Below are positions 7,028 through 50,967 of a DNA stretch of 64,000 bases, in pieces. The notes below the pieces were generated by a model. That model saw only the letters and a program-made list of their open reading frames with translations, ran no database searches and was not told the origin of the DNA. Both the position numbers and the translations under genes were made by a program. Location of the stretch: the NCBI RefSeq assembly GCF_000426625.1, contig NZ_KE384548.1:1-64000 (forward strand), in the 5' to 3' direction. Each line of letters opens with the position of its first letter. The stretch's first letter is position 1. This DNA is from Psychrilyobacter atlanticus DSM 19335. Lineage in GTDB: Bacteria > Fusobacteriota > Fusobacteriia > Fusobacteriales > Fusobacteriaceae.

Positions 7028-7048
7028 AAAGTTTCTTTAGGGGGCAAT

Positions 7049-32541: not shown

Positions 32542-32587
32542 ACCTCTTAACTGTGTGACTATTACAGTTAGGGGGTCTTTATTTTTT
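32542..32587. terminator. Stand-alone terminator-like hairpin
   Basis: ACCTCTTAACTGT (32542-32554) pairs with ACAGTTAGGGGGT (32563-32575) using two G-U pairs, followed by CTTTATTTTTTT on the plus strand. No plus-strand gene lies upstream of it since 31179, so it may end an unseen short transcript or attenuate the leader of the gene at 32760. Confidence 0.55.
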
Positions 32588-32759
32588 TGACTATATTTAA
32601 AAATAAATTCCATAGCAGATTAAGTCCCCTATAATTTATAGGTATATCCAATGACTTAAATAAAATCTAATATAGATCTTAGAGGATTTAGGTTGCTCAT
32701 TCCGTAATAATATACATGAGTTTTAATAACTATTAATTGCTGGAAAAGGAGGATATAAC

Positions 32760-34109
32760 ATGTTAAAAAGTGGGAGAACACCCTTACTGAGAGCACATAA
32801 ACTTGAGAAGCTGTTAGATGTAGGAGAGATCTATATAAAATTAGAAGGTGCAAATCCAGCGGGTCATAAGCATGACAGGATAGCTGAGGTACTAGTAAAA
32901 GATGCCATTGCTCACAAATATACAGGAATTGTTGTAAATGGTTCAGTCAGTTATATTAATTCTATCTTATATTACGCTGCTCTGGAAAATTTAGATATTG
33001 TGATTCCCTTATTTAAGGGAGAAAGGTGGAAAATAGTAAAATTTAAAGATCAGGGAATCCTGGATTTAAGATCTTTAAAATATAAATCACAATTAGAAAT
33101 AATAACAAAAACTGCAGAAGATAAAGATTATTACCTGGCAGCTGAAGGTTATACCAATACTCATATAAACCAAATGATCTTGGAAAACTTAACAGATGAG
33201 ATTTTCAAGAAGCTGAATTATAGAGTAGATACTATATATACCCAGTTAAGCTATGGGTATACATTAACCAGTATACATAACTATTTACTAAAAAAATGGA
33301 TGAATGGTGAAATAGAAAACTTTTCAAATATTATATGTGGAACCTGGGGAAAAGGAAATGCAGTATTTCAATACTTTCAAAGGACTAAAGAAATTAAAAA
33401 TAACGTTCTTGAAGGATTTAAAGATAAAGAGTTATCAAGAAATCATATATTATTGGATATAGAATTATTGGAACAGACTTTTCTCGACATCAATGAAACC
33501 GATGGTGAGGTTATTTCCATCAGCAAAGAACTGTTAAAAGAAAGTGTAAAAATTTTAAGACAGAAGGAGCAGATAAAGGTAAATGAACAGGAGGCATATT
33601 CTTTTGCAGCTTTTTATAAATTAGTTAAAGATAAAAAAGTAAAAAATGGAAGACATGTAATTATCCTGAATGAGGGCAAGAGTATCATAAATATTGAAAA
33701 TTTAAATGACTACGATGAGGTTTCTAAAGACAAATTGGTCAAATTAACCCGGGAATTACTGGTGCAATATTCAGATTCTGTAGCAGAAACAGAGGATGCA
33801 ATAAAAAATGCTATCGATAAAGGGTTTATATTATTAGCTTCTCGTAACGGTATATATGAAGGTGTCTGTATTATTGTCAATCTGGGGTTTGAAGAATTCA
33901 TACCAAAATATCATTTGGCATATATCGGAACCAATAAAGTAAGCAAGGGAAGGGGAGTCGGAACTGAATTAATACAACGTGCTATTGATCTAACCGATGG
34001 CAATCTATCGCTCCATGTAGATTTAGATAATAAAGGAGCTAAAAAACTATATAAAAGGCTCGGATTTAAACATGCTTATAATCGTATGATCTACCAGGGT
34101 GAAATATAG
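32760..34109 (+). CDS. PLP fold-type II enzyme fused to a GNAT acetyltransferase
   Basis: 449 residues. The first 300 or so resemble the threonine synthase / tryptophan synthase beta / cysteine synthase superfamily: SGRTPLLRAHKLEKLL, IYIKLEGANPAGHKHDR with the likely PLP Lys37, then GIVVNGSVSYINSILYYAA and a later Gly-rich CGTWGKGNAV segment. Residues about 305-449 are a GNAT domain (AYIGTNKVSKGRGVGTELIQRAIDL acetyl-CoA loop; ALDN-type LHVDLDNKGAKKLYKRLGFK). The fusion suggests an amino acid made or cleaved and then N-acetylated. The ribosome site AAAGGAGGA supports the ATG. No obvious partner genes; both reactions are unproven. Confidence 0.75.
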   Translation: MLKSGRTPLLRAHKLEKLLDVGEIYIKLEGANPAGHKHDRIAEVLVKDAIAHKYTGIVVNGSVSYINSILYYAALENLDIVIPLFKGERWKIVKFKDQGILDLRSLKYKSQLEIITKTAEDKDYYLAAEGYTNTHINQMILENLTDEIFKKLNYRVDTIYTQLSYGYTLTSIHNYLLKKWMNGEIENFSNIICGTWGKGNAVFQYFQRTKEIKNNVLEGFKDKELSRNHILLDIELLEQTFLDINETDGEVISISKELLKESVKILRQKEQIKVNEQEAYSFAAFYKLVKDKKVKNGRHVIILNEGKSIINIENLNDYDEVSKDKLVKLTRELLVQYSDSVAETEDAIKNAIDKGFILLASRNGIYEGVCIIVNLGFEEFIPKYHLAYIGTNKVSKGRGVGTELIQRAIDLTDGNLSLHVDLDNKGAKKLYKRLGFKHAYNRMIYQGEI

Positions 34110-34167: not shown

Positions 34168-34295
34168 GGTATTATATTTGTAGTAACAGAGAGTCAGACA
34201 AGAGCTTCATTGGTTAAGAAACCCTTTCAGAGGGTTGAAAGTTAAATGGATTTTAAGAAAAACTTATCTGTATTAAAATTTTACGGAGGTAACAA
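34168..34295 (+). promoter_or_regulatory. Promoter and structured 5' leader of the cold-shock gene
   Basis: An extended -10 (TGGTATTAT, 34167-34175) puts transcription start near 34182, leaving a leader of about 114 bases. It can form two mutually exclusive hairpins: AACCCT (34220-34225) with AGGGTT (34231-34236), or CTTTCA (34224-34229) with TGAAAG (34236-34241). Long switching leaders are known for cspA-type mRNAs. Confidence 0.5.
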
Positions 34296-34496
34296 ATGTT
34301 AAAAGGAACAGTTAAATGGTTTAATGAGGAGAAAGGATTTGGATTTATTTCAGCAGAAGACGGAAACGATTACTTCGCACATTTTTCTCAAATCAACAAA
34401 GAAGGATTTAAAACTTTAAACGAGGGAGAAGAAGTAACTTTCGAAATCACTCAAGGCGATAAAGGTCCTCAAGCTTCAAAGATCGAAACTGTATAA
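34296..34496 (+). CDS. Cold-shock protein CspA family
   Basis: 66 residues, the normal size of a single cold-shock domain. Both RNA-binding motifs are visible: [10 protein letters not shown] (RNP1) and DYFAHFSQI (RNP2), after GTVKWFNEE. The protein is a nucleic-acid chaperone that melts RNA structure. TACGGAGGTAAC precedes the ATG. It has its own promoter, a long leader and a terminator, so it is monocistronic. Confidence 0.95.
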
Positions 34497-34550: not shown

Positions 34551-34740
34551 TTTAAATTTTTCCACAATCATTGCATCAGAATCATATATTTACCTAAGTA
34601 ATTATAGCCTGTTATGATAAGTAATAATATTTTTTATGAACAATTTAGTAACTTTTGAAGAGGAATAAAAAAAAGTGATTGTATATTATAAGAGTAAATA
34701 TTTAGTGCATAATTGGTGGTATCAAGAGGAGGAATAAAAA

Positions 34741-35834
34741 TGATTTTACCGATATCAAAAATAGTAGAAATTAAGTGGACTGCCGTAATGATAGATGACG
34801 AAAGCCTTAGGGATTTAATCTGGGAGGCATTGAAACTGGCGGCAGCTGAGAAAGATGTCACTCTCTCATCCAACCCTTATAACTTGTTCACACATGAACT
34901 GATGCTGATAACAAAGTTGACAGCAATAAATAAAGGAATTATAGAGCTGAAGTGGATAGATCATCTCGTGAATCTGAGAGAACTTGATCTCAGTCAAAAT
35001 AAGATAGTAAATCTAGAGGGAGTGAAGTTCCCTGGCACCCTGACAGAACTTAATCTCAATCACAACCAGATAGCGAACCTGAAAGGTGTAAAGTTCCCTG
35101 ATAGCCTGACAAGCCTTGATCTTAATAACAACAAGATAGCTAGCCTAGAGGGAGTAAAGTTCCCCGGTGGTCTAATAGAACTTAATCTCAAGCACAATCA
35201 GATAGCTGACTTGGAGGGTCTAAACTTCACCGGTCTTGATAACCTGACTATTCTTGGTCTTAATAACAACAAGATAGCGAGTCTTGAGGGGATGAAGTTC
35301 CCCGATAGCTTGACAACTCTCCATCTTTTTAGCAACCAGATAGCTAACTTGGATGGTCTAGACTTTACTGGTCTTGATAACCTAGCTGTTCTTGGTCTTA
35401 ATAACAACAAGATAACGAATCTCGAAGGGATAAAGTTCCCCGATAGCCTGACAACTCTCCATCTTTTTAGCAACCAGATAACAAACCTAAAGGTAGTAAA
35501 GTTCCCCGATAGCCTGCAAAGCCTTGATCTTCTCAGCAATAAAATAACGAGCTTAGAGGGGGTGAACTTCCCTAATAACCTACAGAGTCTCGATCTCCTC
35601 AGCAACCAGATAACGACCTTGGAGGATGTAGAATTCCCTGATAATCTACAGAATCTCGATCTTTCTAATAACCAGATAGATACAGTTGCCGGATTTGAAA
35701 AAGCATTCTCTAAACTTAATAAGTTTTTTCATGTCTGTATGCGTAGCAACCCTATCACAGAGAATTCAGAATACCGTACGGTAACACTTAAGATAGAAGC
35801 AGATAACCCACACATCAACTTTACTCCTAGGTAG
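34741..35834 (+). CDS. Leucine-rich-repeat protein (SDS22/internalin-like repeats)
   Basis: 364 residues from the ATG at 34741, set by AGAGGAGGAAT; a TTG at 34713 is a frame extension only. After an N-terminal domain of about 70 residues, some eleven 22-residue leucine-rich repeats follow (consensus LxxLDLxxNxIxxLEGVKFPDS) to about residue 320, then a short capping region. Two units are 24 residues because they carry an LDFTGLDN insertion. No signal peptide is seen, so a cytoplasmic role in protein binding is likely unless export is non-classical. It stands alone between terminators. Confidence 0.8.
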
Positions 35835-36205: not shown

Positions 36206-37327
36206 TCATCTACACTGTCCATAATAAATTTTGATTAATAGCTCAATATACTCTTCATTATTAAATTGATTAGGATTTCCAATTGTACAAATATCTTTTT
36301 CTATATCTCTTAAAAAGTTTGGAATTAGTTTTTTATAATCTTTAAACTCTATACCTAAATCTTTAAAAGAATTTGGAATTTTCATTTCCTTTTTTAAAAT
36401 ACTAATCAACGCTATCAAAGAATTCTTACCTTCCTCTATATTTTCTGAAGGCAACCCTAACATTTTAGAAATTTCAAAATAATATTCATGAGCATTTTTA
36501 TTACTTTCTATTACATAAGGCATTATTATTGCGTTTGATCTCCCATGAGATAAATGAAAATTAGATCCCAAAGTATGAGCTATACTATGATTTATCCCTA
36601 AAGAAGAATTATTAAAGGCTAGGCCGGCCATGCATGAAGCATGCTGTATTTCTTCTCTAGGTTTTAATAATTCAGCATTCCCATAATGCTTTAATAAATT
36701 TTTATAAACTATTTTAATTGCTTCTAAAGATAAAGCATTCGTAAACGAATTCCTAGAAGTAGATACATATGCTTCTATTGCATGAGTTAATACATCCATT
36801 CCAGTATCAGCAATTACGACTCTAGGTAAAGTTTTCATAAACTCCGGATCTAATATTGCCATAGTTGGTAACATTTCATCATCAGCTAAAGCTATTTTAT
36901 TATTTTTATTTGTAATAACACTATAAGAAGTTACTTCTGAACCTGTCCCACTAGTTGTAGGAATTGCTATAAATGGAATTCTTTTTATATCTCCTTTATG
37001 TTCTTTTTGAATTTTATAACTAAAATAAATTATCCCTTTACAGGCATCTATAGGAGAACCACCTCCTAATGCTATTATTACTTCAGGATTAAACATAAAA
37101 TATTCTTTTATTCCATCTTCTATAACTTCTATAGTTGGATTAGGTTCAACTTTATCAAATACCTTTACTTCTGATCCATTTAAATTAGATATTACTTTAT
37201 CAACTAAACCTAATTTAACCATAGTCTTATCCGTCACTATAAGAATTTTTTTTGATTTCAAATTGTTAATCCATACTAAAGATTCGCACCCGTACTTTAT
37301 TTCAGGTTTTAATTTAAATTCTTTCAT
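36206..37327 (-). CDS. eutG: Iron-containing alcohol dehydrogenase
   Basis: 373 residues, group III alcohol dehydrogenase. NAD loop IIALGGGSPIDACKGI, substrate loop PTTSGTGSEVTSYSVI, and metal ligands in the DVLTHAIEAYVS and NHSIAHTLGSNFHLSHGRSN segments. In the ethanolamine pathway EutG reduces acetaldehyde to ethanol and recycles NAD inside the microcompartment. It is the last gene of the operon, 9 bp after eutQ. No clear N-terminal encapsulation helix is visible, unlike several other cargo proteins here. Confidence 0.9.
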   Translation of the reverse strand: MKEFKLKPEIKYGCESLVWINNLKSKKILIVTDKTMVKLGLVDKVISNLNGSEVKVFDKVEPNPTIEVIEDGIKEYFMFNPEVIIALGGGSPIDACKGIIYFSYKIQKEHKGDIKRIPFIAIPTTSGTGSEVTSYSVITNKNNKIALADDEMLPTMAILDPEFMKTLPRVVIADTGMDVLTHAIEAYVSTSRNSFTNALSLEAIKIVYKNLLKHYGNAELLKPREEIQHASCMAGLAFNNSSLGINHSIAHTLGSNFHLSHGRSNAIIMPYVIESNKNAHEYYFEISKMLGLPSENIEEGKNSLIALISILKKEMKIPNSFKDLGIEFKDYKKLIPNFLRDIEKDICTIGNPNQFNNEEYIELLIKIYYGQCR

Positions 37328-37336
37328 TTTATCCTC

Positions 37337-37786
37337 CTAGTTTTGTTCTTGCCAATTAGCTGGATAAACAACATAAATAAATTTAGCGTAATCTGGAGCA
37401 CTAAATTTAATTTTTGAACCTTTAGGAATTAGCATTACATCTCCCTTCTCTCCAATTATTTCTCTTCCATCAATAATAATTTTTAATGTTCCTTCAATTA
37501 TATAATCTATTTCATCATAATTTAATGTCCAGTCAAAAGTAGATTCTTTCATCTCCATCATTCCTGCCCCTATTCTTGGACTTTCAGTTAATGAAAATAA
37601 ATCAGTAACATAGACTTCATCATTAGGATTTCCAGTATCAAATCTTTCTTGTTCTATTTTATTTGCTTTTATTACTCCTATGCCACTTGGATCAAAGTAT
37701 TTATTTTTTGAATTTTCCTTATTACCTAATTCTGCTTCAATAACTTTTTTTATTAATATTTCTAATTCTTTTTGATTTATATCCAT
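37337..37786 (-). CDS. eutQ: Ethanolamine utilisation cupin EutQ
   Basis: 149 residues. An amphipathic N-terminal helix (QKELEILIKKVIEAEL, about 5-20) precedes a disordered linker and a cupin domain (FDWTLNYDEIDYIIEGTLKIIIDGREI, GDVMLIPKGSKIKFS). EutQ has been described as an acetate-kinase-like or assembly-related cupin. The ATG overlaps the eutH stop by one base, so the two genes are coupled. The helix resembles microcompartment-targeting peptides on neighbouring proteins. Confidence 0.9.
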   Translation of the reverse strand: MDINQKELEILIKKVIEAELGNKENSKNKYFDPSGIGVIKANKIEQERFDTGNPNDEVYVTDLFSLTESPRIGAGMMEMKESTFDWTLNYDEIDYIIEGTLKIIIDGREIIGEKGDVMLIPKGSKIKFSAPDYAKFIYVVYPANWQEQN

Positions 37787-38889
37787 TATACTTCTTCACC
37801 CACTATTTTTTTATTTTTAGATGCACTATACATATATGATGCCAATGTCACAGCAGTAATTCCTCCTACTAATTTTCCTACTACCATTGGGAATATCATA
37901 CTTCTATCAACTCCTGCAGTAAATCCTAAGTGATCTCCAAAAACAAAAGCAGCACTTACTGCAAAAGCAACATTTAGTACTTTCCCTTTCTCATCCATAT
38001 CTTTCATTAATCCAAACATAGGAATACTATTTGCTAAACTTGCCACCATTCCTGTTGCAGAAGTTTCGTTCATTCCTAAAAGTTTTCCAAACTTTAATAA
38101 GGGTTTGTTAAATACTTTAGTAATAAAATGAACTAATGGAAACGCTCCTGCTAACGTTATTGAAACAGCCCCTATTATTTCAATTCCTTCAGATATTGGT
38201 GCCATTCCTGGTATAACTACTATTCCTGTTAAAGTTTCTATTACTATTGCTGCCAAAGCTAATGTAATAACAATTACTACTCCTTGACCAAAAATTGTAA
38301 ACCCTTTTATCATTTTAGCTGGAATTTTCCATAATCCTAAAGCTATTATTCCAGCAAACAAAATTATTGGAATTAAGTTAACTAAAATTAACTCTAAACT
38401 AAATCCACCTACTAATCCACCTACTAAACAACCTAATGGTATAGTTACTACTCCTGCTAATACACCTTTTGCAAGAAATTCCCTATCTTCAACTTTTATA
38501 ATTCCTAAAGCTACTGGTATTGTAAATACTATTGTTGGACCCATCATAGCTCCTAAAATAAGACCTGCAAATGTTCCTGCTTCTGGAGTTTCTGCTAATT
38601 GCATAGCTAAAGGATATCCTCCCATGTCATTAGCAAGTAATGTTGTTGCAAACATCGCAGGATCTGCCCCTAACATTTGGTATAGTGGAGAAACTATTGG
38701 TCTTAATACATTAGCTAATACTGGAGCTAACGATATAACTCCTACCATTGCTAGCGCTAGCGCTCCCATAGCCATAAATCCTTCCTCAAATTTTTCTCCA
38801 TATCCATATTTATTCCCTATACATTTATCAATAGCGCCTACTGCCATAAAAAAAACCATTATATAAATAATAATATCGTTAATTCCCAT
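37786..38889 (-). CDS. eutH: Ethanolamine permease EutH
   Basis: 367 residues with about ten membrane segments and the EutH pattern (DKCIGNKYGYGEKFEEGFMAMGALALAM at the N-terminus; ANDMGGYPLAMQLA; NSIPMFGLMKDMDEKGKVLNVAFAVSAAFVFGDHLGF). It should import ethanolamine across the inner membrane, mainly when the uncharged form is scarce. It overlaps the upstream small gene by 11 bp, and its own stop overlaps the eutQ start. Confidence 0.93.
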   Translation of the reverse strand: MGINDIIIYIMVFFMAVGAIDKCIGNKYGYGEKFEEGFMAMGALALAMVGVISLAPVLANVLRPIVSPLYQMLGADPAMFATTLLANDMGGYPLAMQLAETPEAGTFAGLILGAMMGPTIVFTIPVALGIIKVEDREFLAKGVLAGVVTIPLGCLVGGLVGGFSLELILVNLIPIILFAGIIALGLWKIPAKMIKGFTIFGQGVVIVITLALAAIVIETLTGIVVIPGMAPISEGIEIIGAVSITLAGAFPLVHFITKVFNKPLLKFGKLLGMNETSATGMVASLANSIPMFGLMKDMDEKGKVLNVAFAVSAAFVFGDHLGFTAGVDRSMIFPMVVGKLVGGITAVTLASYMYSASKNKKIVGEEV

Positions 38890-39157
38890 TTTTTATCATC
38901 TCCTCAACTATTTTTGTAATTCTATTTACTTCTATAGTATCTACTATGTTAAATTCTTTTTCTAAGATTGTTTTAATTCTATTTTTTAAAGACATTTTTT
39001 TATTTTCTTTGGTTTCACTATAAGATAGTTTTATATCCCTCTCTTTCAAATAATCTTTTACTATAGGTGATAGAACCATATTTTTAGATACATAAAAGTC
39101 GCTACCACAAATATATTCTTCTATATTTCTTAAAGTAATTAATACCTTCTTATTCAT
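38879..39157 (-). CDS. Small eut-operon protein resembling the EutT N-terminus
   Basis: 92 residues; family not firmly known. The first 45 residues (TLRNIEEYICGSDFYVSKNMVLSPIVKDYLKERDIKLSY) align by eye with the start of the EutT protein in this operon (KGAILTPSAKQFLHDKKIEI). The last 35 residues form one or two charged helices (ITKIVEEMIKNGN) similar to microcompartment-targeting helices. It overlaps both neighbours (eutN by 8 bp, eutH by 11 bp). It could be an adaptor for cobalamin enzymes or for cargo, but this is inference. Confidence 0.6.
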   Translation of the reverse strand: MNKKVLITLRNIEEYICGSDFYVSKNMVLSPIVKDYLKERDIKLSYSETKENKKMSLKNRIKTILEKEFNIVDTIEVNRITKIVEEMIKNGN

Positions 39158-39410
39158 CTCCTCCTCCTTCTTCTATTTCATCGATAATACCTATAACTAA
39201 CGAATCTATAGGTACATCTTCTTCATAAGTCCCTTTTCTTGCTCCACTTCCTAGAGTCACTAGAACTTTATCTCCCTCACCTGCTCCTATATTATCACAA
39301 GCAACAATTTTTTCACCATTTTCTAGTTCAACTATCAAAAATTTGTATCCATTCAGATTATTTACTTTTCTTGTGGCCCAAACATTTCCTATTACTTTAC
39401 CTATTTTCAT
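39150..39410 (-). CDS. eutN: Microcompartment vertex protein EutN
   Basis: 86 residues of the EutN/CcmL family: KIGKVIGNVWATRKVNNLNGYKFLIVE at the start, DNIGAGEGDKVLVTLGSGAR, and DSLVIGIIDEIE at the end. Such proteins form pentamers that close the corners of the polyhedral shell. It sits among enzymatic genes downstream of the main shell genes. Its stop overlaps the next gene by 8 bp. Confidence 0.93.
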   Translation of the reverse strand: MKIGKVIGNVWATRKVNNLNGYKFLIVELENGEKIVACDNIGAGEGDKVLVTLGSGARKGTYEEDVPIDSLVIGIIDEIEEGGGDE

Positions 39411-39414
39411 TCCA

Positions 39415-39987
39415 TCACCTTTTTAATAATTTGATTTCATTTTCCCTTGCAAATTCTTTGGCTAACTCTGTTATTTTTACATTTTTAGAAATCTCTATTA
39501 CTTTACTAGAATTAAATTCATTTTTTATTTTTTTAAAATCTAAAATCCCTTCGGAAACATATTCCCTTTTCTTTATTATTTTTTCTTGTATTTCTAACCT
39601 TTTAGATATTTGAATTCCATATTTTTCTATCTCTTTTTCATATTTTTCATAAATCACTTTTAGATGTAATGGAATTTTTTTGTATGCTCTCCAAGCTATT
39701 CCTTCTTCTATTAAAAAAATTTTCTTGCCATTTAATAATCCTTTTAAAATTTTTTCACAATAATCACTTTCATAAGTTCCTTGAGAGAGAGCAACCATCT
39801 CTTTTATTCCAATAGTTGTAATAATTAAGTATTCACCTTTATCAGAAATTTTAAATTTCTTACTCAATTCATCTTTTAAAAGTACATCTTCGCCTATAAT
39901 TTCTATATTTTTGTTCAAACTATTTTCCATTTTTATATATTTGCTTACTTCTTTTTTTATTAATTCTATTAAATTTTGTTCATTCAT
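39415..39987 (-). CDS. Conserved eut-operon protein of unknown function
   Basis: 190 residues, similar in size and pattern to hypothetical proteins found in eut operons of Clostridia and Fusobacteria. An amphipathic N-terminal helix (LIELIKKEVSKYI, about 6-18) looks like an encapsulation peptide. The body contains GEYLIITTIGIKEMVALSQGTYESDYCEKILKGLLNGKKIFLIEEGIAWR, which recalls a flavoprotein-like alpha/beta fold. It overlaps pduL by 4 bp. No reaction can be assigned. Confidence 0.7.
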   Translation of the reverse strand: MNEQNLIELIKKEVSKYIKMENSLNKNIEIIGEDVLLKDELSKKFKISDKGEYLIITTIGIKEMVALSQGTYESDYCEKILKGLLNGKKIFLIEEGIAWRAYKKIPLHLKVIYEKYEKEIEKYGIQISKRLEIQEKIIKKREYVSEGILDFKKIKNEFNSSKVIEISKNVKITELAKEFARENEIKLLKR

Positions 39988-40604
39988 ACTATTTCTCCGT
40001 AAGAATTTTTATTAAGGTTACATGCATTAGCTTCATCATAATCAATATGCATACTTAATTTAAAAGAATCATTTACTCTTATTAATACTTCTTCAAATAT
40101 CAGTGGTCTCTCTGAATGTATTTTTACTTTAACTTTATCACTATCTTTAACATTTAATTTTGTTGCTTCTTCTAAATTCATATGAATATGATTCTTTGCG
40201 ATTATTACTCCCCTTTCCAATGTTATTTGTTTATCTTTGTTTGTCACAATTAATCCAGCTGTATCTCTTATATTTCCTGAATTCCTTATTGATGGTTTTA
40301 CTCCTAATTTTCGACAATCAGTCAAAGAGATTTCAACTTGAGTTTCTGATCTAGCAGGTCCTAAAACTATTACATTTTCTATTACATCTTTTGGGCCAAT
40401 TATTCTAACTCTTTCTTCACAAGCAAATTGACCTGGTTGAGATAACTCTTTTTTTTTCTTTAATTCATATCCCTTTCCAAATAAATGTTCTATATCTTTA
40501 TAACATAAGTGAATATGTCTTCCAGATGCCTCTATCGGTATTTTGTTTGCATTGTAATGTTCTAATTGATCTTTTACAAGCTTTACTATTTCATCAATTC
40601 CCAT
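39984..40604 (-). CDS. pduL: Phosphate acyltransferase, PduL type
   Basis: 206 residues. The PduL hallmarks are present: IEASGRHIHLCYKDIEHLFG, GPARSETQVEISLTDCRKLG, and KNHIHMNLEEATKL with the paired His metal ligands. It should convert acetyl-CoA and phosphate into acetyl phosphate and CoA, recycling CoA inside the shell. The N-terminal helix (IDEIVKLVKDQLEHY) is a typical encapsulation peptide. In this operon it takes the place of the EutD-type phosphotransacetylase. It overlaps both neighbours by 4-11 bp. Confidence 0.92.
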   Translation of the reverse strand: MGIDEIVKLVKDQLEHYNANKIPIEASGRHIHLCYKDIEHLFGKGYELKKKKELSQPGQFACEERVRIIGPKDVIENVIVLGPARSETQVEISLTDCRKLGVKPSIRNSGNIRDTAGLIVTNKDKQITLERGVIIAKNHIHMNLEEATKLNVKDSDKVKVKIHSERPLIFEEVLIRVNDSFKLSMHIDYDEANACNLNKNSYGEIV

Positions 40605-41349
40605 ATTCCCCTTTTTCCTCCTTTAGCATCATTATATAAATTGCACTACTTAATCTATTTAGGGCTTTTAAAAGGTCTATCTTTTGAACTTTTGATTCTG
40701 ATACAAAAGCATCTACAGCCGTCACTTCTACTTCTCTAATCAAAGTTCTTAACTTATTCAGATACAAAGTCCTCAAATTATTTTCAGATGATATACCAAA
40801 AAGGTGATCCATAGAAAAATATTTTTTAGGATTATGTGAGATTTTTCTTATTTTTTCTAATGATAAATTAAAAATTTTTAAATCTTTATCTAATTTAGTG
40901 TTTAATACTTCTGCTTTTATTATTTCATCTAAAAATTGTTTTATGCTCTTAAAATCTTCTTTTAATCCCTTGTTTTTATCAGTATTAACTTGTTTTTCGA
41001 TTAGTATTAATTCTGATAAAAAATTATCTATTTTACTTCTAAAAAAAATTATTTTATGATTTTTTTTTATTAATATATTCTCTGAAAGTTGAGTCATATA
41101 TTCTGGTTTTTCAAAATATACTTCCCCCATAACTCCTTTATATTTAGCAACGACACTTTTCTCTATTGAGTTTTCTGTTGTTGTTTTTTTATTTTGTTCT
41201 TGTTCATTTTTTATTTTAGTTATTTCTATTTTCTTGTCATGAAGAAATTGTTTAGCGGAGGGTGTTAATATTGCACCCTTCTCTAAATAATATTTATTAA
41301 ATTCTTGTTTTTTATAGCTTTCTTTTAAACTTAATTCTGTTACTACCAT
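40594..41349 (-). CDS. eutT: Cobalamin adenosyltransferase EutT
   Basis: 251 residues. The N-terminal segment (SYKKQEFNKYYLEKGAILTPSAKQFL) and the C-terminal helical bundle (LRTLIREVEVTAVDAF, LLKALNRLSSAIYIMM) fit EutT. It should attach the adenosyl group to cobalamin for ethanolamine ammonia-lyase. The whole protein contains no cysteine, so the Cys-rich metal motif known from Salmonella EutT is absent. It overlaps pduL by 11 bp and follows eutE by 8 bp. Confidence 0.82.
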   Translation of the reverse strand: MVVTELSLKESYKKQEFNKYYLEKGAILTPSAKQFLHDKKIEITKIKNEQEQNKKTTTENSIEKSVVAKYKGVMGEVYFEKPEYMTQLSENILIKKNHKIIFFRSKIDNFLSELILIEKQVNTDKNKGLKEDFKSIKQFLDEIIKAEVLNTKLDKDLKIFNLSLEKIRKISHNPKKYFSMDHLFGISSENNLRTLYLNKLRTLIREVEVTAVDAFVSESKVQKIDLLKALNRLSSAIYIMMLKEEKGEYGN

Positions 41350-41357
41350 ATAGTTAC

Positions 41358-42812
41358 CTACCTATTTAATAAGTCTTGTACTACTTTTTTTATTACATTT
41401 TCTATATCTATATTTGTATTTGAGCATTCTTTATTATTTAAAGTAGAAGTTTTATTAGGTTTTAGATCCTCTAACTCTCTAACTCCCCAAGCTAATCTTC
41501 TTATATTTATAAGATTTAATGGTGTAATATTATCCGATGTAGAACTGCCTCCAACTGCCCCGCATCCTAATGTAAGTGCAGGTGCTAGATTAGTTGTTCC
41601 TCCTATCCCCCCTAGAGCTCCTGGGGTATTTACTAATATTCTAGAAGCTGGTTTTTTCAATCCAAATTCTCTAATAATTGCTTTATCTTCTGAATGGATA
41701 CATAATGTATGTCCTGCTCCTTCATTATTTAATATTTCTATAGATCTTTTGCAAGCGTCTTCCCAATTCTTTTCTACGTAAAAAGCTAATATTGGAGCTA
41801 ACTTTTCTCTTGAATAAGGGTTTATTTTAGATACTGTGGTTTCTTCTGATATTATTACTCTTGTACCTCTTGGAATTTCAATATTTGCAAGATTTGCTAT
41901 ATATTCTACGCTTTTCCCTACTATCTGAGGATTCATCGTCCCATTTGCTCTCAATATAAATTTTCCTAATTTTTCTGATTGTTCTCTTGTTAAAAAATAA
42001 GCTCCTTGTTTTTTTAATTCTTCTATTACTTCTATTTTTTTTATTTCTTCTACAATAATTGATTGCTCTGAAGCACATATAACACCATTGTCAAATGTTT
42101 TACTGTCTAATATCCTTTTTACAGCAAGTTTTATATTCGCGCTTTTTTCTATAAATGCAGGTCCATTTCCAGGTCCAACTCCTATTGCTGGATTCCCTGA
42201 ACTATAAGCGGCTCTAACCATTGCTTCTCCACCTGTTGCTAAAATAACTGCAGTATCTTTATGTTTCATAAGAGCTTGTGTTCCTTGCAAAGTTGGAATT
42301 TCAATTACTCCAATTAATCCCTCCGGTGCCCCAGCCTTAGATGCTGCATTTTGCATAATTCTAACGGTTTCTAGTATACAATTTTTAGCATTTGGATGAG
42401 GACTAACAACTATTCCATTTCCTGATTTTAATGCTAATAAAATTTTATATATTGTTGTAGAAGTAGGATTAGTAGATGGTATTATTCCCGCTATAACCCC
42501 TACAGGAACACCTATTTCTAAAATGTTTTCTGTTTCTTTTATTACTCCTATTGTTTTCATATCTTTTATGTATTCATACAGGTATTCAGAAGCAAACTTA
42601 TTTTTAATAACTTTATCTTCCCATATACCAAAACCAGTTTCTTCTGCTGCTTGTTTTGCTAATTTATCATTATAAGAAGATACTTCTTTTGCAACAATTT
42701 TAACTATGTAATCAATTTTTTCTTGATTAAATTCAGCATATTTTTTCTGTGCACCTTTAGAAAGGGCCATTAAATCCCTAACTTGCTGTATTGACAATAA
42801 ATCTTTATCCAT
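41358..42812 (-). CDS. eutE: Acetaldehyde dehydrogenase (CoA-acylating) EutE
   Basis: 484 residues of the aldehyde dehydrogenase superfamily, EutE/PduP branch. Landmarks: GVIAGIIPSTNPTSTTIYKILLALKSGNGIV, ILATGGEAMVRAAYSSGNPAIGVGPGN, and the catalytic Cys in DNGVICASEQS. It converts acetaldehyde, CoA and NAD into acetyl-CoA. The last 18 residues (IDIENVIKKVVQDLLNR) form an amphipathic helix after a flexible linker, similar to targeting helices that other family members carry at the N-terminus. Confidence 0.94.
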   Translation of the reverse strand: MDKDLLSIQQVRDLMALSKGAQKKYAEFNQEKIDYIVKIVAKEVSSYNDKLAKQAAEETGFGIWEDKVIKNKFASEYLYEYIKDMKTIGVIKETENILEIGVPVGVIAGIIPSTNPTSTTIYKILLALKSGNGIVVSPHPNAKNCILETVRIMQNAASKAGAPEGLIGVIEIPTLQGTQALMKHKDTAVILATGGEAMVRAAYSSGNPAIGVGPGNGPAFIEKSANIKLAVKRILDSKTFDNGVICASEQSIIVEEIKKIEVIEELKKQGAYFLTREQSEKLGKFILRANGTMNPQIVGKSVEYIANLANIEIPRGTRVIISEETTVSKINPYSREKLAPILAFYVEKNWEDACKRSIEILNNEGAGHTLCIHSEDKAIIREFGLKKPASRILVNTPGALGGIGGTTNLAPALTLGCGAVGGSSTSDNITPLNLINIRRLAWGVRELEDLKPNKTSTLNNKECSNTNIDIENVIKKVVQDLLNR

Positions 42813-42822
42813 TATTTTCCTC

Positions 42823-43338
42823 CTAAATATACTTTAATATTCCATTACTAGGATTATTTATTTTTCGATAACTTTTTACCTTGTATGATTCAGTCACTAA
42901 AATAATCGCTTCTTCTATAGAATCTATATTTCCAGTTATAACATAATAACTCTTTCCTGCAATACCGTAGCCTAATACTAGCTTAACTATTGCCACATCT
43001 ATTTTTTTTATTAAATTATCTAAAGAGTAAAGACTTTCAGAAATATTTGAAAATTCAAATACTCCAATAGAACTTTTAATCTTTTTATTATTTTGATTTC
43101 TTATTGCTTTCAAAACATCTTCTGAGACCCCTGAGATTGATATTTTTTTTTGTTCTTCCTTTAAATTATTTAAACCTATATTTATGGATTCTGTGTCCCC
43201 TAAGATTATAAAGTAATATTTGCCTGGACACGTTGTTCCTGCTCTATATACATCAACATTTACTATTTTTAAAAATTTATCTAGTGTTTCTATTCCTTCA
43301 GGAATACTAGAAAATTCGGCTACACCAATGGAACTCAT
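42823..43338 (-). CDS. Tandem-BMC shell protein (PduT-like)
   Basis: 171 residues from the ATG at 43338, with TAAGGTGA as ribosome site; the GTG at 43347 belongs to that site. Two BMC domains in tandem are visible: SSIGVAEFSSIPEGIETLDKFLKIVNVDV then SSIGVFEFSNISESLYSLDNLIKKIDVAI, each followed by a Gly-rich pore strand (CPGKYYFIILGD; GIAGKSYYVITGN). The single Cys near the first pore (TTCPGKY) recalls PduT, which can hold an iron-sulfur cluster at the trimer axis. It likely forms a pseudohexameric shell tile. Confidence 0.85.
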   Translation of the reverse strand: MSSIGVAEFSSIPEGIETLDKFLKIVNVDVYRAGTTCPGKYYFIILGDTESINIGLNNLKEEQKKISISGVSEDVLKAIRNQNNKKIKSSIGVFEFSNISESLYSLDNLIKKIDVAIVKLVLGYGIAGKSYYVITGNIDSIEEAIILVTESYKVKSYRKINNPSNGILKYI

Positions 43339-43407
43339 ATTAATCACCTTAATTTTTAAACGGCAGAAGCTGTAACGTTATACAGCTTCTGCCAATTTAA
43401 TTTTTTA

Positions 43408-43695
43408 CTATTTAGTTATTGCTTTTGGTAAAATAATTTCAACTTCTGAATGAGGTCTTGGAATTACATGAACAGAAATTAAATCTCCAACTCTATCTGC
43501 TGCTGCTGCTCCTGCGTCTGTAGCCGCTTTAACAGCCCCAACATCTCCTCTAACTAATACAGTAACTAATCCTCCACCGATCATTTCTTTCCCTACTAAT
43601 GTTACATTTGCTGCTTTTACCATTGCGTCTGCTGCTTCTACTGCTGCTACTAACCCCTTTGTTTCAATCATTCCTAATGCATTTAAAGTTGCCAT
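43408..43695 (-). CDS. eutM: Hexameric BMC shell protein EutM
   Basis: 95 residues, a canonical single BMC domain: [67 protein letters not shown] and a [11 protein letters not shown] ending. It should be a main facet protein of the shell. GAGGATTAAT precedes the ATG. It is 61% or so Ala/Gly/Val-rich like other EutM proteins. A second, longer BMC gene lies just upstream. Confidence 0.95.
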
Positions 43696-43715
43696 AATTA
43701 ATCCTCCTATATTTT

Positions 43716-44114
43716 TTATTTTTTATTTTTTATTTCTTTTTTTTTAGCTGTTGTTTCTTGTTTTAATTCTTTTATTTCTTTTACCACTAAATCTGTTTCT
43801 GTTTTTTCAACTTTTTCTAGTGTTTTAAAATTTTCTTTTTCAAGATTGTCTAAAATTAAATTTGCAATTGATTCACTCGGTCTAGCTATTACATTGCTAC
43901 TCACATAAAGTCCTAATTTTTTAACAGATTCTTCCGCTGCTTCTATTGCTACTTTAACAGCTCCAATATCTCCAGTTATTTCGACTGTTACTATCCCTGC
44001 ACTAATAAAATGCTTGTTTAAAATTTCAACATTTGCTGTTTTAGTAGCTACATCTGCAGCTTCTATAGCGCCTATTAATCCTACAGTTTCCATCATTCCT
44101 AATGCTTTCATCAT
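43716..44114 (-). CDS. BMC shell protein with Lys-rich C-terminal tail
   Basis: 132 residues. Residues 1-90 are a EutM-like BMC domain ([60 protein letters not shown]). The remaining 40 or so are charged and end in a run of lysines ([12 protein letters not shown]), with no cysteines. Two adjacent ATGs (44114, 44111) both fit the AAGGAG site. In some systems EutK carries a C-terminal nucleic-acid-binding extension; this tail is different but also basic, so binding to nucleic acid or to cargo is possible. Confidence 0.82.
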
Positions 44115-44122
44115 TTTGCTCC

Positions 44123-44776
44123 TTAATACTTAGTTGGATTTGCTGCGACATACTTAACAGCATCTGCAAAAGCCTCACAAGCCGCTTTACACGCTGATTG
44201 ACTTCCAGTTAATAAAGCTCCACCAAAGTTTGTTTCAGATGGTGGTCCAAAAAATGAAACCATTGTTACATCTGCAGCTTTCATTGCTGTATCTAGAGCA
44301 TACATTGCTTCTAGAGGAGGAGCTATTAAATAAGCGATGGCTTCTCCTTCTTTTATTCCAGAAGTTTTTGATAAATATGTCCCAGTTCTTGAGATACAAT
44401 GTGCATAATAAGCTATAGAATCATCCTCGTTAGCACTATAGAAACACGCTTCATTTTCTACAAAATCAATTATTGTATCTAAACCACTCTTTACTTCGGC
44501 AGGGGTTGGACCTGCTATAATCCCAATAACTTCTCCTGCTAATTTAGTATTTGCATTTGCTGCACCACCATAAAATGATTTCCCATAAACAACCTCTACT
44601 TCTGCCATTTTAGTAGCAGCATCAAGTGCCGTATAGGTTACATCATCACAATCTGCCGTAACAATTCCAATACTTTTATACCCATTCGGTAAATTTAATT
44701 CCTTTGCCATCTTATCATCTACATTTGGTATAACCTTTACTCCTAATACTTTTGCTTTCAACGGATCATTAATCAT
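44123..44776 (-). CDS. eutL: Trimeric shell protein EutL
   Basis: 217 residues, the tandem circularly permuted BMC protein EutL: PLKAKVLGVKVIPNVDDKMAKELNLP at the start, GKSFYGGAANANTKLAGEVIGIIAGPTPAEV, and GPPSETNFGGALLTGSQSACKAACEAF at the end. EutL trimers have a large gated pore and can bind ethanolamine. Strong ribosome site GGAGGGGA. It lies between eutC and the EutM-like genes. Confidence 0.95.
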   Translation of the reverse strand: MINDPLKAKVLGVKVIPNVDDKMAKELNLPNGYKSIGIVTADCDDVTYTALDAATKMAEVEVVYGKSFYGGAANANTKLAGEVIGIIAGPTPAEVKSGLDTIIDFVENEACFYSANEDDSIAYYAHCISRTGTYLSKTSGIKEGEAIAYLIAPPLEAMYALDTAMKAADVTMVSFFGPPSETNFGGALLTGSQSACKAACEAFADAVKYVAANPTKY

Positions 44777-44788
44777 TTTTCCCCTCCA

Positions 44789-45655
44789 CTAAAGTTTTAA
44801 ATCTTGTCCACTAGCCTTAGCTTCCAAGCTTTGTTTTATAATATGCGCTATATGTGCACCAGCTTCCGCAGCAGATGTCCCGTTTCTATGAATATTTGAA
44901 ACTACTGTTCTTTTGGCCTCTGGAATTCCTATGTACCCTTTATATGTAATATATGCACTCATACTTTCTGAAGTTGCTAGACCTGGCCTTTCTCCAATTA
45001 ATACACATGTTAATTCTGCATCCACAATCTCTGAAACTTCATCTGCTGCAGCTACTCTACCGTACTTTACAAAGAATGGAGTTCCTGTTTCTATTCCATA
45101 AGATTTTAATCCATTTAATAACGATGGTAAAGTATCTTCAACGTTTGCTTCTATAGCAGTAGAACTTAATCCATCTGAAACATAAACTTGTACTTTTGGT
45201 GATTTTTTACATTTTTCTTTAATTTCTTGGACACCTGCTTCAGAAACTCTTCTTCCTAGATCAGGCCTAGTAAGATATTCATCTTTATTTTCACATCTTG
45301 TTTCTACTTTAAATAAATCATTTCTCTTTAAAAATTCGTCCGATACATCACTAAATACTGCATCTATTGCTGCAGCATGATCTGCTTTAAACCTCAATGA
45401 AGTACTCGTAAGATATCTACTCCCAGCTCTAGACACTCCTACTCTTGCAGGTGTTTTTTGTTTATATTTTAGAAATTCATTCCTATTATACAATTCTTTT
45501 AATTCACATATATCTTTAATTTCTTTTTCTGTTATGTCTTCTAGTTCCATATTGCATAATTTTTCTTCAATTATTTTGTTTTCTACTTTTGTTTCAGCCC
45601 CCATTTGTTCTAAAACTTTAGAAATTATGCCTTTAAGTTCTTTTTCTGATACCAT
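44789..45655 (-). CDS. eutC: Ethanolamine ammonia-lyase small subunit EutC
   Basis: 288 residues. Typical EutC segments: TPARVGVSRAGSRYLTSTSLRFKADHAAAIDAVFSDV, VQVYVSDGLSSTAIEANVEDTLPSL, LIGERPGLATSESMSAYITY and RNGTSAAEAGAHIAHIIKQSLEAKASG. It binds the adenosylcobalamin with EutB. The first 20 residues (EKELKGIISKVLEQMG) are an amphipathic helix that in EutC directs the lyase into the shell, followed by an acidic linker. Confidence 0.95.
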   Translation of the reverse strand: MVSEKELKGIISKVLEQMGAETKVENKIIEEKLCNMELEDITEKEIKDICELKELYNRNEFLKYKQKTPARVGVSRAGSRYLTSTSLRFKADHAAAIDAVFSDVSDEFLKRNDLFKVETRCENKDEYLTRPDLGRRVSEAGVQEIKEKCKKSPKVQVYVSDGLSSTAIEANVEDTLPSLLNGLKSYGIETGTPFFVKYGRVAAADEVSEIVDAELTCVLIGERPGLATSESMSAYITYKGYIGIPEAKRTVVSNIHRNGTSAAEAGAHIAHIIKQSLEAKASGQDLKL

Positions 45656-45667
45656 TTTTTCCTCCTC

Positions 45668-47029
45668 TTATAAAAAAATTGATCCATCTCCTGATTTTTT
45701 TGTTAATTTTTCATTGTTTCTAATCCCCATCTCTTCTAGCCATAAAGAAAATTCTTTAATTGGAGTTTTATTTAATGTTTCTCTCAGAGTTTGTATATCA
45801 TGATACCCTGTAGTTTGATAATTAAGCATAATATCATCTCCTACAGGAACTCCCATAAAGAAGTTACACCCTGCTGATGTTAATAATACTGCTAAATTTT
45901 CTATATCATTTTGATCAGCTTTCATATGATTTGTATAACAAACATCTACACCCATTGAAAGTCCATGTAATTTACCCATAAAATGATCTTCTAATCCCGC
46001 TCTTGTTACTTGTTTACTATCGTATAAATATTCTGGTCCTATAAATCCTACTACTGTATTAACAATAAAAGGATCGTATCTTTTCGCAAAACCATAACAT
46101 CTGGCTTCCATTGTTAATTGATCTACCCCATGATGAGCATCTGATGAAAGTTCTGATCCTTGCCCAGTTTCAAAATACATTACATTTGGCCCGGCTCCAG
46201 TTCCTTCTTTTAATGCTAATTGTCTAGCTTCTTCTATCATTTTTGCATTTATTCCAAAAGCTTCATTCCCTTTTTCAGATCCCGCTATACTTTGAAATAT
46301 TAAATCTGTTGGAGCTCCTTTTTTTATTGCCTCCATTTGCGTTGTAACATGAGCAAGTACACAAATTTGTGTTGGTATTTTCCATTTTCTTTTTATTTCA
46401 TCAAATCTTTCTAATACTCTAATTACACTATCTACTGTATCATCTACAGGATTAAGTCCTATTACAGCATCTCCTACTCCATAACTTAAACCTTCTAAAA
46501 GAGAAATCATAATCCCATCAGGGTCATCTGTTGTATGATTGGGTTGTAATCTTGCTGCAAGAACTGTTTCTCCTCCAATAGTAGTATTACAGTGTTTAGT
46601 AACAACTATTTTTTTTGCTGTTTGTATTAAATCTAAATTGGACATTAATTTAGTTACTGCAGATATCATTTCTGAAGTAAGACCTCTTCTAATCCATTTA
46701 ATATCATTTCCTTTTACCTCTGAGCTTAATAGCCATTCTCTTAATTCTTTAACAGTCCATTCTTTTATTTCATCATAAACTTTTAGATTTAAATCATCTA
46801 TTATTATTCTTGTTATTTCATCTTCATCATATGGTACTGCAGGATTTTCTTTCAAATCTCTCAAGGTAATTTCAGATAAAACTACTTTAGCAGCTACTCT
46901 TTCTTTTGTTGTCTTAGCTGCAAGACCTGCTAATTCATCCCCTGATTTTAATTCATTGGCTTTAGCCATAACTTCATTAAGAGACTTAAAGTGATACTCT
47001 ACGCCAAATAATTTTGTACTTAATCTCAT
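45668..47029 (-). CDS. eutB: Ethanolamine ammonia-lyase large subunit EutB
   Basis: 453 residues, full length. Segments such as ETVLAARLQPNHTTDDPDGIMISLLEGLSYGVGDAVIGLNPVDDT, YFETGQGSELSSDAHHGVDQLTMEARCYGFA and GLSMGVDVCYTNHMKADQ are diagnostic. With EutC and adenosylcobalamin it splits ethanolamine into acetaldehyde and ammonia. It precedes eutC by 12 bp and follows eutA by 19 bp, so the three are one unit behind the attenuator upstream of eutA. Confidence 0.97.
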   Translation of the reverse strand: MRLSTKLFGVEYHFKSLNEVMAKANELKSGDELAGLAAKTTKERVAAKVVLSEITLRDLKENPAVPYDEDEITRIIIDDLNLKVYDEIKEWTVKELREWLLSSEVKGNDIKWIRRGLTSEMISAVTKLMSNLDLIQTAKKIVVTKHCNTTIGGETVLAARLQPNHTTDDPDGIMISLLEGLSYGVGDAVIGLNPVDDTVDSVIRVLERFDEIKRKWKIPTQICVLAHVTTQMEAIKKGAPTDLIFQSIAGSEKGNEAFGINAKMIEEARQLALKEGTGAGPNVMYFETGQGSELSSDAHHGVDQLTMEARCYGFAKRYDPFIVNTVVGFIGPEYLYDSKQVTRAGLEDHFMGKLHGLSMGVDVCYTNHMKADQNDIENLAVLLTSAGCNFFMGVPVGDDIMLNYQTTGYHDIQTLRETLNKTPIKEFSLWLEEMGIRNNEKLTKKSGDGSIFL

Positions 47030-47048
47030 TTATTCCACCTCTTTTATT

Positions 47049-48473
47049 TTAATAATTTAATACTAATGTTTTTACTATTACTGGCAATACACTCCCATTT
47101 CCTAGCGGTTTACCTAAATCTATGTAATCCCCATCTGCAAGTTTAATCCCGTCTATACAAATAATTTCAGTATTTTTTGGATATTTAAGCACTAATCCTT
47201 GCCCTAACACTTTACCTATATCATGTTCAACTACTATTATTATTTTTTTTAGATTTGATAGAGCAAGATGTAATTTTTCATATAGATTTAAAATCTCATA
47301 ATATTTCATATTCCTTTTTCCTGTTAACCCTATTGCAATTACTTGATCATCACCATTAATCTTAAACCACTCTATTTTCTTAGAAAGTTTTTTTGCAAAT
47401 TCATCTTTCTCCAAAAGTTCATCTGAAGACGTAAGTTTAATTACTGGTATATTTTTAAATGGAAATGAATTAGTTGTATAAGTTATAGTGCTACCTGAAA
47501 TTTCTGTAGTATGGGACCCTGCACCTATTACTGTTGCTCCGATAGTTTCTCCCGCTTTTATTGTTTTTATATTTTCGTCCTTTAAAATTTTCTTGATTTC
47601 TTCTCCAAGAATTACACCAACATCTTTATAAATAAACTTATTTTCCACAGGGTCTCTATAAATATAATCCGCTACTCCTCCTGAAAAACTTACATATTCA
47701 GAAATAACAGAACTTGATGAATCTTTATACGTTATTAATTTTTTATACTCGGCACTTTTTTTTTTAAAATTAAGAGTTTGTAAGAACATATAAGCTAAAT
47801 ATCTACATAAAATTTTTAACTCTTCTAAACTTGCTTTAGAGCCAACTTTTAAGCTTTTTAAGCCTAATTTTTCTATTAAATCCAAATACTTTTCATATAT
47901 ATAATTAATTTCTAATTGTTCATCTTTAAAAGTAATTAAATGGCCTCCAATATCTAAACATGTAGTATCTATTATCTCTCCTTTATCAAACAAAGAAATA
48001 TTTGTTGTCCCACCTCCAATATCAAAATGATAAATTGTTGTATTATTTTTTTCTGAAAATTCCATTGCCCCAGAACCTTTTCCTGCAATAACACTTTCTA
48101 AATCTGGTCCTGCGGTTGCAACTACAAAATCTCCAGCTAATCCACTTAATGCATTTAGAACTTCTCTTGCATTTTCTTTTCTTGCAGTTTCACCTGTTAT
48201 AATAACAGCTCCAGTTTCTACAGAATTTATATTTACACCACTTGTTTTATATTCAGATTTTATAATTTTTTTTATACTTTCTGCATCAATTACTCTTTGA
48301 TTTAATAGCGGAGTAAGATAAATTTTACTTCTGTAAAAAACTTCTTTCCCGACTATTTTTATTTGTGGAACTCTTGCTCCTGAAGCCATGTTTTCTAAAA
48401 TAATTTTTGTAAACACTAATTGGGTTGTAGAAGTTCCTATATCTATTCCAACACTAATTATCTCTTCTTTCAT
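47049..48473 (-). CDS. eutA: Ethanolamine ammonia-lyase reactivating factor EutA
   Basis: 474 residues from the ATG at 48473, chosen because AAAGGAGAAGGG lies directly upstream; the longer frame reaches back into the terminator hairpin. The ATPase-like fold is visible: [17 protein letters not shown] at the start, [18 protein letters not shown] in the middle and [12 protein letters not shown]. EutA removes damaged cobalamin from EutBC using ATP. It is the first gene after the EutV-type antitermination leader, so everything from here to eutG is probably controlled by it. Confidence 0.93.
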
Positions 48474-48497
48474 CCCTTCTCCTTTGGTAATAAAAAA

Positions 48498-48566
48498 AGC
48501 CAAAATAACATAGTTATCCTATGTTACTTTGGCTTCATTGCCTTATAAATACACACCTTTGTGCAC
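48498..48566 (-). ncRNA. EutV-type antitermination leader (P1, P2 and terminator)
   Basis: Read on the minus strand in order: hairpin P1 (48549-48566) GTGCAC-AAAGGT-GTGTAT, hairpin P2 (48531-48542) GGC-AATGAA-GCC, then a 16-bp terminator stem (48519-48534 with 48498-48513, one mismatch) followed by a T-run. Both hexaloops have A at position 1 and G at position 4, the rule for ANTAR-domain binding. The 3' arm of P2 overlaps the 5' arm of the terminator, so bound EutV would prevent termination. It lies between eutW and eutA. Confidence 0.85.
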
Positions 48567-48573
48567 CATAATA

Positions 48574-49971
48574 TTATATATTTTTAAATTCAAATTCTAC
48601 AGTAGTCCCTTTTCCAATTTTACTTTTAACATTAAAAGTTCCTTTTAATTTATCTTTCACAATTTTTTCAACTATCATCATTCCTAGGTTCTTATCTTTT
48701 CTTTCATTAACATTCATTCCGACCCCATTGTCAGATACGCTAATTTTGAAACAAAATTGTGTTTTTTCAGCATTAATTGTTATATCCCCTTTTTCTCTTC
48801 CTACAAAAGCATGATCTACTGCGTTTTGCAATATTTCATTCATAACCAAAGCTATTGCTGTAGAAGTTTCTGAGTTCGTATAAAAATCACTTCCAATAAC
48901 ATTAAACCTTATTTTATTTATTTTGTCAATAGATGTATTTGAAAAATTTTTGTACACTAATTTTAATATTTTTTTTATATTCAAATCATTAAACCCATTT
49001 TCGGACAATATTTCATGTGTTATAGCAATGCTTAAAATTCTATTTATTGTCTCATCTAATATTTTTTTTACTTCTTCATTCTCTACTCTTCTTTTCTGTA
49101 TCCTCAATAAACTAGCTATTGTTTGTAAATTATTTTTTACTCTATGATGAATTTCTTTTATCGCTACTGACCTTAACATTAATTCTTTTTGATCATTTTT
49201 TTCTTTTGTAATATCTTGTACAATCATTATCACATTTGTCTCTTTTTCTTCAAATTCTGTTAAAAAATAAGAAACAGCTAATGATATTCCTGATATCGTT
49301 ATTTCTTTTATTTTTTTAGTTTCAACCTCTTCTAATATTTTAGAAAATTTAGATTTTGTTAAAGTTATATTTTCATAATTTCTTCCAAATATATTGTGAT
49401 ATATTCCTAATTTTGAATAAATTAATTTTGCAACTTTATTTGAATAAACTACATCTCCATTTCTATTAAAAACTACTACTCCATCTTTAACAAATTCTGG
49501 AATTTTAGTTCTTGAAACACTTATTTCTTTAATCAAGTTGTTAGTTGTTTTATTTAATAAATCCGAGTTTAGCTTTTTTTCACCATGATCTTTATATTCA
49601 ACTATTATAACTGCTATAGTCTGATTGTCGTTATTTTTAATAGGGATGACATTTTGAGTGACATCTTCCTCTTCTTGAGTTATAGCTTTATAATTTTTTG
49701 AAGGCAGTCCTGTTAAAAAACTTCTAAAAACAGCTGGTTCTTTTGTAGAAATAGCAGTTTCGCCTGATACATTCCTAGTATAAAGGCTATTTTGAGGAGG
49801 TTTTGCATGATAAACAACTATTGCTTTTTCTTTATCTTTTGTAGCACAGTTTATAAAGACATCAGTTCCTAAAATATTACTCAACATTGAAACAGTTTCC
49901 TTTAAACTCAATATTTTTTCTATATCTTCCTGTATTAATGTTCCAGATATTTTACAGTAAGTAGTTATCAT
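48574..49971 (-). CDS. eutW: Sensor histidine kinase EutW
   Basis: 465 residues from the ATG at 49971, with AGGTGA upstream; the GTG at 49980 is part of that ribosome site. Residues about 1-150 form an N-terminal sensor region, 155-265 a PAS-like domain (VKDGVVVFNRNGDVVYSNKVA), then the HisKA_2-type phospho-acceptor (KEIHHRVKNNLQTIASLLRIQKR) and an HATPase domain (NEILQNAVDHAF, DNGVGMN, GLGMMI-like NLGMMIVEKIV). No membrane segment is visible, so it senses ethanolamine in the cytoplasm. It overlaps eutV by 20 bp. Confidence 0.93.
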   Translation of the reverse strand: MITTYCKISGTLIQEDIEKILSLKETVSMLSNILGTDVFINCATKDKEKAIVVYHAKPPQNSLYTRNVSGETAISTKEPAVFRSFLTGLPSKNYKAITQEEEDVTQNVIPIKNNDNQTIAVIIVEYKDHGEKKLNSDLLNKTTNNLIKEISVSRTKIPEFVKDGVVVFNRNGDVVYSNKVAKLIYSKLGIYHNIFGRNYENITLTKSKFSKILEEVETKKIKEITISGISLAVSYFLTEFEEKETNVIMIVQDITKEKNDQKELMLRSVAIKEIHHRVKNNLQTIASLLRIQKRRVENEEVKKILDETINRILSIAITHEILSENGFNDLNIKKILKLVYKNFSNTSIDKINKIRFNVIGSDFYTNSETSTAIALVMNEILQNAVDHAFVGREKGDITINAEKTQFCFKISVSDNGVGMNVNERKDKNLGMMIVEKIVKDKLKGTFNVKSKIGKGTTVEFEFKNI

Positions 49972-50545: not shown

Positions 50546-50964
50546 TTCCCCCCCTTTATATAACTATTTAAAGTTTCTATTTTACAGTTTTTCCCAATCT
50601 CAATAATTTCTTCAACTCCTGCAAGTTCTAAAAAATTTCTAGCTATTTTTGTATCTTTATTTAAATCTACTTTAGTTATTATTCCTATAACTTTTTTATT
50701 TAAAAACATTGATGAAAAATTAGGTGGAAAAACGCTAACTTCATCTAAACTTGATTGAACTAATCCTACAATTTGAGTATCTATAGCTATAACATTTAAA
50801 GCTTTATAATAGTGTCTATTTTCAATATATTCTCCAGGAGTATCTATTATTTCACCAATATAATCTACCATTTGAGTTTTTTTATACTCTAATTTTTCTT
50901 TATTGAGCCTTTGGGTTAAAGTAGTTTTTCCTACTCCTGTTTTTCCAACCAACATTAATTTCAT
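50542..50964 (-). CDS. eutP: EutP GTPase-like protein
   Basis: 140 residues. P-loop GKTGVGKTTL at residues 7-16, then TPGEYIEN and the guanine-type motif TKVDL, typical of EutP/PduV small GTPase-like proteins. EutP proteins have been linked to acetate kinase activity or to microcompartment positioning. The gene lies between eutS (3 bp away) and eutV (4-bp overlap). Confidence 0.92.
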   Translation of the reverse strand: MKLMLVGKTGVGKTTLTQRLNKEKLEYKKTQMVDYIGEIIDTPGEYIENRHYYKALNVIAIDTQIVGLVQSSLDEVSVFPPNFSSMFLNKKVIGIITKVDLNKDTKIARNFLELAGVEEIIEIGKNCKIETLNSYIKGGK

Positions 50965-50967
50965 AAG

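Follow-up and report, generated by a model that had tools for sequence, protein, structure and literature searches.

The window analysed here is a stretch of 64,000 nucleotides from Psychrilyobacter atlanticus DSM 19335. It contains an ORF that has a strong ribosome site, AGGAGG, in front of it and whose product joins a PALP domain (fold type II PLP) to a C-terminal GNAT acetyltransferase domain (Table 1). The match to PF00291 was above the Pfam gathering cut-off (E 7.1e-22; 78.5 bits versus 35), and so was the match to PF00583 (36.6 bits versus 20.7). The acetyl-CoA loop of the GNAT domain is intact and reads K396-G-R-G-V-G401. Both the N-terminal PLP-fold domain and the C-terminal GNAT with its loop, as claimed in the initial annotation, were thus confirmed. 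The PALP-GNAT fusion is a variant of known families. Among NCBIfam models, the PALP domain was matched best by PRK06381 (NF004996), a 'threonine synthase', at 131.5 bits, and the equivalog cut-off of that model (266) was not reached. TrpB-like NCBIfam models gave 15.8-19.5 bits on the fusion protein against cut-offs of at least 366. Either 'threonine synthase' or 'cysteine synthase' would be a wrong annotation for this protein.

Table 1. Coordinates of the features described (positions are those of the window unless another sequence is named).
Feature	Position	Strand	Remarks
PALP-GNAT fusion gene	32760..34109	+	one uninterrupted ORF, 449 aa
PALP domain, residues 4-303	32769..33668	+	PF00291; fold model and Foldseek
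Displaced lysine motif, N32-P-A-G-H-K37-H38-D-R40	32853..32879	+	alignments to canonical PALPs
SGN(T)G substrate/cofactor loop site, residues 60-65	32937..32954	+	reads N-G-S-V-S-Y
Glycine-rich phosphate loop (GxGGTxxG) site, residues 162-171	33243..33272	+	reads QLSYGYTLTS
GNAT domain, residues 339-436	33774..34067	+	PF00583
GNAT motif A (acetyl-CoA loop), residues 396-401	33945..33962	+	K-G-R-G-V-G; sequence comparison
Conserved upstream non-coding block	32640..32715	+	kept in four species of the genus; its core, 32679-32691, is TTAGAGGATTTAG
Small cold-shock gene	34293-34496	+	CSD, PF00313; directly after the fusion gene
LRR protein gene	34713-35834	+	373 aa
Terminator-like hairpin and T run	32542-32576	+	
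c-di-GMP-I riboswitch	6944-7030	+	Rfam, 82.7 bits
Microcompartment-like cluster	36206-51312	-	assigned by eye
Stand-alone GNAT copies, Persicobacter plasmid (L009)	21761-22207 and 36349-36795		each near an ornithine-racemase-like gene
Host ornithine degradation cluster	L064 2582-12951 (G000:C2:636000-655999)		Ord, OrtA, OrtB, OraE and Orr by NCBIfam

In the window, the neighbours of the fusion gene are a LacI regulator, an EamA transporter on the opposite strand, the cold-shock protein and an LRR protein; no pathway gene is adjacent, in agreement with the initial annotation. By sequence, the cold-shock region was also found 3' of the fusion gene in a second genome of the genus (G059) and, with less clarity, in a third (G061), while the remaining neighbours vary among species. 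The LRR protein, which has near-identical internal repeats, is encoded near the fusion gene in G059 too. Elsewhere in the window, the c-di-GMP-I riboswitch precedes a TPR-like ORF at 7049, and a run of genes that by eye resembles an ethanolamine-type microcompartment cluster appears to comprise shell proteins, ammonia-lyase subunits, and aldehyde and alcohol dehydrogenases.

The conserved block upstream of the fusion gene is probably a promoter or leader. A search of the leader against Rfam matched no family and returned nothing above chance, and its predicted structure was unconvincing (z -1.07, with little covariation among the four sequences). The motif TTAGAGGATTTAGG has nine matches in the genome; four of their flanks were inspected, of which one was the leader itself and the other three lacked the remainder of the block. 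The terminator-like hairpin is in the gap towards the divergent EamA gene, some 180 bases upstream of the fusion gene.

Lysine register and cofactor loops of the PALP domain

The initial annotation had taken Lys37 as the usual PLP lysine. When the protein was aligned by MAFFT with 10 canonical fusobacterial PALPs, the motif was ungapped, with KLEGANPAGHKHDRIAE over KLEGSNPSKSTKDRIAL, and the canonical Schiff-base column fell on His38 (codon 32871-32873), Lys37 (codon 32868-32870) lying one residue earlier. The same ungapped register, again with His38 in the column, was obtained by HMMER alignment to the solved threonine and cysteine synthases 5xem, 6cgq and 2zsj. It was also obtained with 32 viral cysteine-synthase-like proteins, which had been picked by a pattern demanding the Schiff-base lysine and are a fair yardstick for the other columns. 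Among fusobacterial PALPs retrieved by profile, with no selection on the lysine, all 15 carry it in the normal column as S-x-K. The assignment of Lys37 as the usual PLP lysine was not borne out by these alignments, since the column for that lysine holds His38. The canonical SxKDR or HKIN placement is absent from the fusion protein. In all six fusion proteins examined (five from the genus and one from Acetoanaerobium noterae) the Schiff-base column is His or Asn, the latter in A. noterae and in one copy of the genus (G057).

The two other loops of the cofactor site are altered as well. The Asn-loop S-G-N-[TAS]-G, which contacts cofactor and substrate, is kept neither in the genus (N-G-S-V-S) nor in A. 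noterae (H-G-S-E-R, within HGSERY). The phosphate loop GxGGT is retained in part, as SYGYT in the genus and as KGGYT, with two glycines, in A. noterae, where the whole site reads QAKGGYTVMS. Of 58 columns conserved at 90% or more in the 32 viral proteins, the window protein keeps 22 and changes 36, and the changed columns include the SGN(T)G, GxGGT and GIS[SA]GAN motifs. Classical PLP chemistry is made doubtful by the alteration of the SGN(T)G and phosphate loops besides the lysine column, and we infer from the residues at these sites that the PALP domain has lost it.

On the other hand, the fusion proteins share the family motif NP[AT]GHK[HN]DR: N32, P33, G35, H36, Lys37, D39 and R40 are invariant across the fusion proteins. 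Judged from the sequences, the invariance of Lys37 and its motif neighbours suggests an active site that is being preserved, not one that is dead. The initial annotation had named the loss of PLP-binding residues among homologues as evidence that would speak against it. Such loss was found in part, because the lysine column is His or Asn and both loops are changed, but Lys37 itself is invariant, so that an unusual PLP site is still conceivable on sequence grounds.

These observations bear on the possibility that the protein is a bifunctional enzyme, in which Lys37, though displaced, still holds PLP for amino-acid synthesis or breakdown by the PALP domain, whose product the GNAT domain then acetylates. 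A displaced yet working lysine can be envisaged: a slip of one residue might leave Lys37 near PLP, and it could have arisen by a paired one-residue deletion and insertion (NPTGSHK-DR to NPTG-HKxDR). Speaking against this, no gap appears across the motif in the profile and pairwise alignments. Lys37 and the His preceding it are shared by all six proteins, including that of A. noterae at about 40% identity, and the 'HK' is like that in MSHKDR of a fusobacterial sequence (L010). TrpB has a His-Lys pair, which the 'HK' of the fusion resembles. The overall fold model also matches threonine synthases (see below), but the changes in the other cofactor loops argue against this reading, which we take as the chief alternative and consider possible though rather unlikely. 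Its most far-reaching form, a new two-step synthesis in which the moved Schiff-base lysine still works and is coupled within one chain to acetylation of its own amino-acid product, appears improbable.

Structure prediction of both domains, proposed in the initial annotation, gave a model for the PALP half. A model of residues 1-311 was built with AlphaFold2 from an alignment with the 32 viral cysteine-synthase relatives (pLDDT 71.5, pTM 0.74), and a helix begins at residue 37. In Foldseek, threonine deaminases and threonine synthases matched this model, 2zsj among the latter with E 3e-15 and TM 0.78. The match is support and not independent proof, because the input alignment already held PALP proteins that steered the fold. 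The model is consistent with the domain assignment and does not settle the lysine register. With two close sequences only, AlphaFold2 gave an unusable model (pLDDT 35), and no good model was obtained for the GNAT half.

Threonine synthases (PF00291; 2zsj, 6cgq, 2d1f) resemble the fusion protein in domain length, in the predicted order of strands and helices, and in the N-terminal motif KxEGxNPxG..DR, which aligns with the fusion protein ungapped. They differ in that the fusion protein has His or Asn in the Schiff-base column, changed SGN(T)G and GxGGT loops, and an added C-terminal GNAT domain.

The acetyltransferase half and its stand-alone relatives

The C-terminal half resembles other GNAT proteins in that the whole domain scores above the curated cut-off and carries the GRGVG loop, and it is unlike them in being fused to a PALP domain. 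The loop fits the pattern [RQ]xxGx[GA], its first position being Lys and not Arg or Gln; in A. noterae it reads A-G-R-G-V-A. This half belongs to a small GNAT subfamily whose motifs, FIPxYHLAYIG and SLHVDxxNKxAKKLY, recur in A. noterae and, in weaker form, in Persicobacter. The nearest stand-alone GNATs found are two copies on a Persicobacter plasmid, with 34% and 30% identity over about 130 aa. One copy has a sodium/solute symporter before it and an M20 amidohydrolase, an alanine racemase and an Orr-like racemase after it; the other copy has a further Orr-like gene about 330 bases downstream. Among the genomic contexts read, a metabolic neighbour was seen in Persicobacter only. The only contextual clue to the substrate class comes from here and points to amino acids, perhaps of the D- or diamino kind.

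A different substrate would be expected if the protein, like RimI, acetylated proteins, peptides or other large substrates; the PALP domain would then act as a recognition scaffold, and the protein would have no role in amino-acid metabolism. RimI was among the better NCBIfam matches both for the fused GNAT half, which did not near the cut-off of 86.4, and for the Persicobacter GNAT, which at 39.9 bits stayed well below it, and the fusion gene stands alone in shifting contexts. However, RimI-type scores are generic for GNATs, and the Persicobacter GNATs accompany amino-acid racemases and an amidohydrolase. We regard a large substrate as unlikely.

The ornithine-racemase-like neighbours in Persicobacter have counterparts in the oxidative ornithine degradation pathway (Orr, OraS/E, Ord, OrtA/B), whose cluster is present in the host genome at a distance from the fusion gene. 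There the order is an alanine-racemase-like gene, Ord, OrtA, OrtB, an arginase-like gene, a small subunit, OraE, a MutL-like gene and Orr, and OrtB is a separate PALP protein, not the fusion. With the host genome's own Orr as query, Orr-like genes were found in A. noterae. We weighed whether co-occurrence of the fusion with Orr could count as functional evidence and decided against it, because within the phylum every carrier of the fusion belongs to one genus; it is weak evidence also since Orr occurs in 16 of 98 Fusobacteriota genomes, including 7 of the 8 of the window's genus.

Distribution, selection and possible role

A search for the same fusion in other genomes, suggested by the initial annotation, was successful. 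When 98 Fusobacteriota genomes were searched in six frames, the full protein was present in five, all of them in the window's genus (8 genomes), and in none of the 90 others; the carriers thus belong to one genus of 29. The three genomes of the genus in which it was not found are 62-76% complete. Outside Fusobacteriota, where sampling was thin, a full-length relative with 38-40% identity in A. noterae (Clostridia) was the sole one seen. A genome-wide scan returned one locus, in the same genus. Scans of the viral collection gave no relative of the fusion and no occurrence of the motif GHK[HN]DR, and no description of such a PALP-GNAT fusion was found in the open-access literature searched. Because the fusion recurs in other genomes, it is real and not an accident of assembly or reading.

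Copies within the genus show 81-95% identity. Their dN/dS is about 0.05-0.15 in both halves for most pairs; in one close pair the GNAT half gave 0.41, on a small dS. The low dN/dS in both domains indicates that selection also acts on the PALP half, which is not decaying. Between the genus and A. noterae, the GNAT domain is 53% identical, versus 40% overall. The patchy spread, in one genus of the phylum and one clostridium, and the varying neighbours could also be those of a relic, a horizontally spread gene with no fixed role that is being lost. This seems very improbable in view of the ORF, intact in each of the five genomes of the genus that carry it, a dN/dS of about 0.1 and the conserved upstream block.

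The explanation that we prefer, and to which we give even chances, is that the protein N-acetylates an amino acid or amine through its GNAT domain, and that its PALP domain is non-classical and would bind a ligand instead of performing ordinary PLP chemistry. The GNAT domain would acetylate an amino acid or a related small amine; the membership of the GNAT family and the racemase and amidohydrolase neighbours of the Persicobacter GNATs point to acetyl transfer of this kind. The PALP domain, having given up ordinary PLP catalysis, would be a module for ligand binding, regulation or assembly; it might, for instance, sense or present an amino acid. The initial annotation had proposed that a single protein might make or degrade an amino acid and acetylate it. 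The fusion on which that idea was based stands, and the amino-acid chemistry is weakened by the His/Asn column and the altered loops.

The PLP lysine occupies the same column in every canonical relative checked and is displaced in the fusion family. A displaced lysine, together with selection and an attached GNAT domain, would represent either a PLP fold converted to a binding role or an active site that has been rebuilt.
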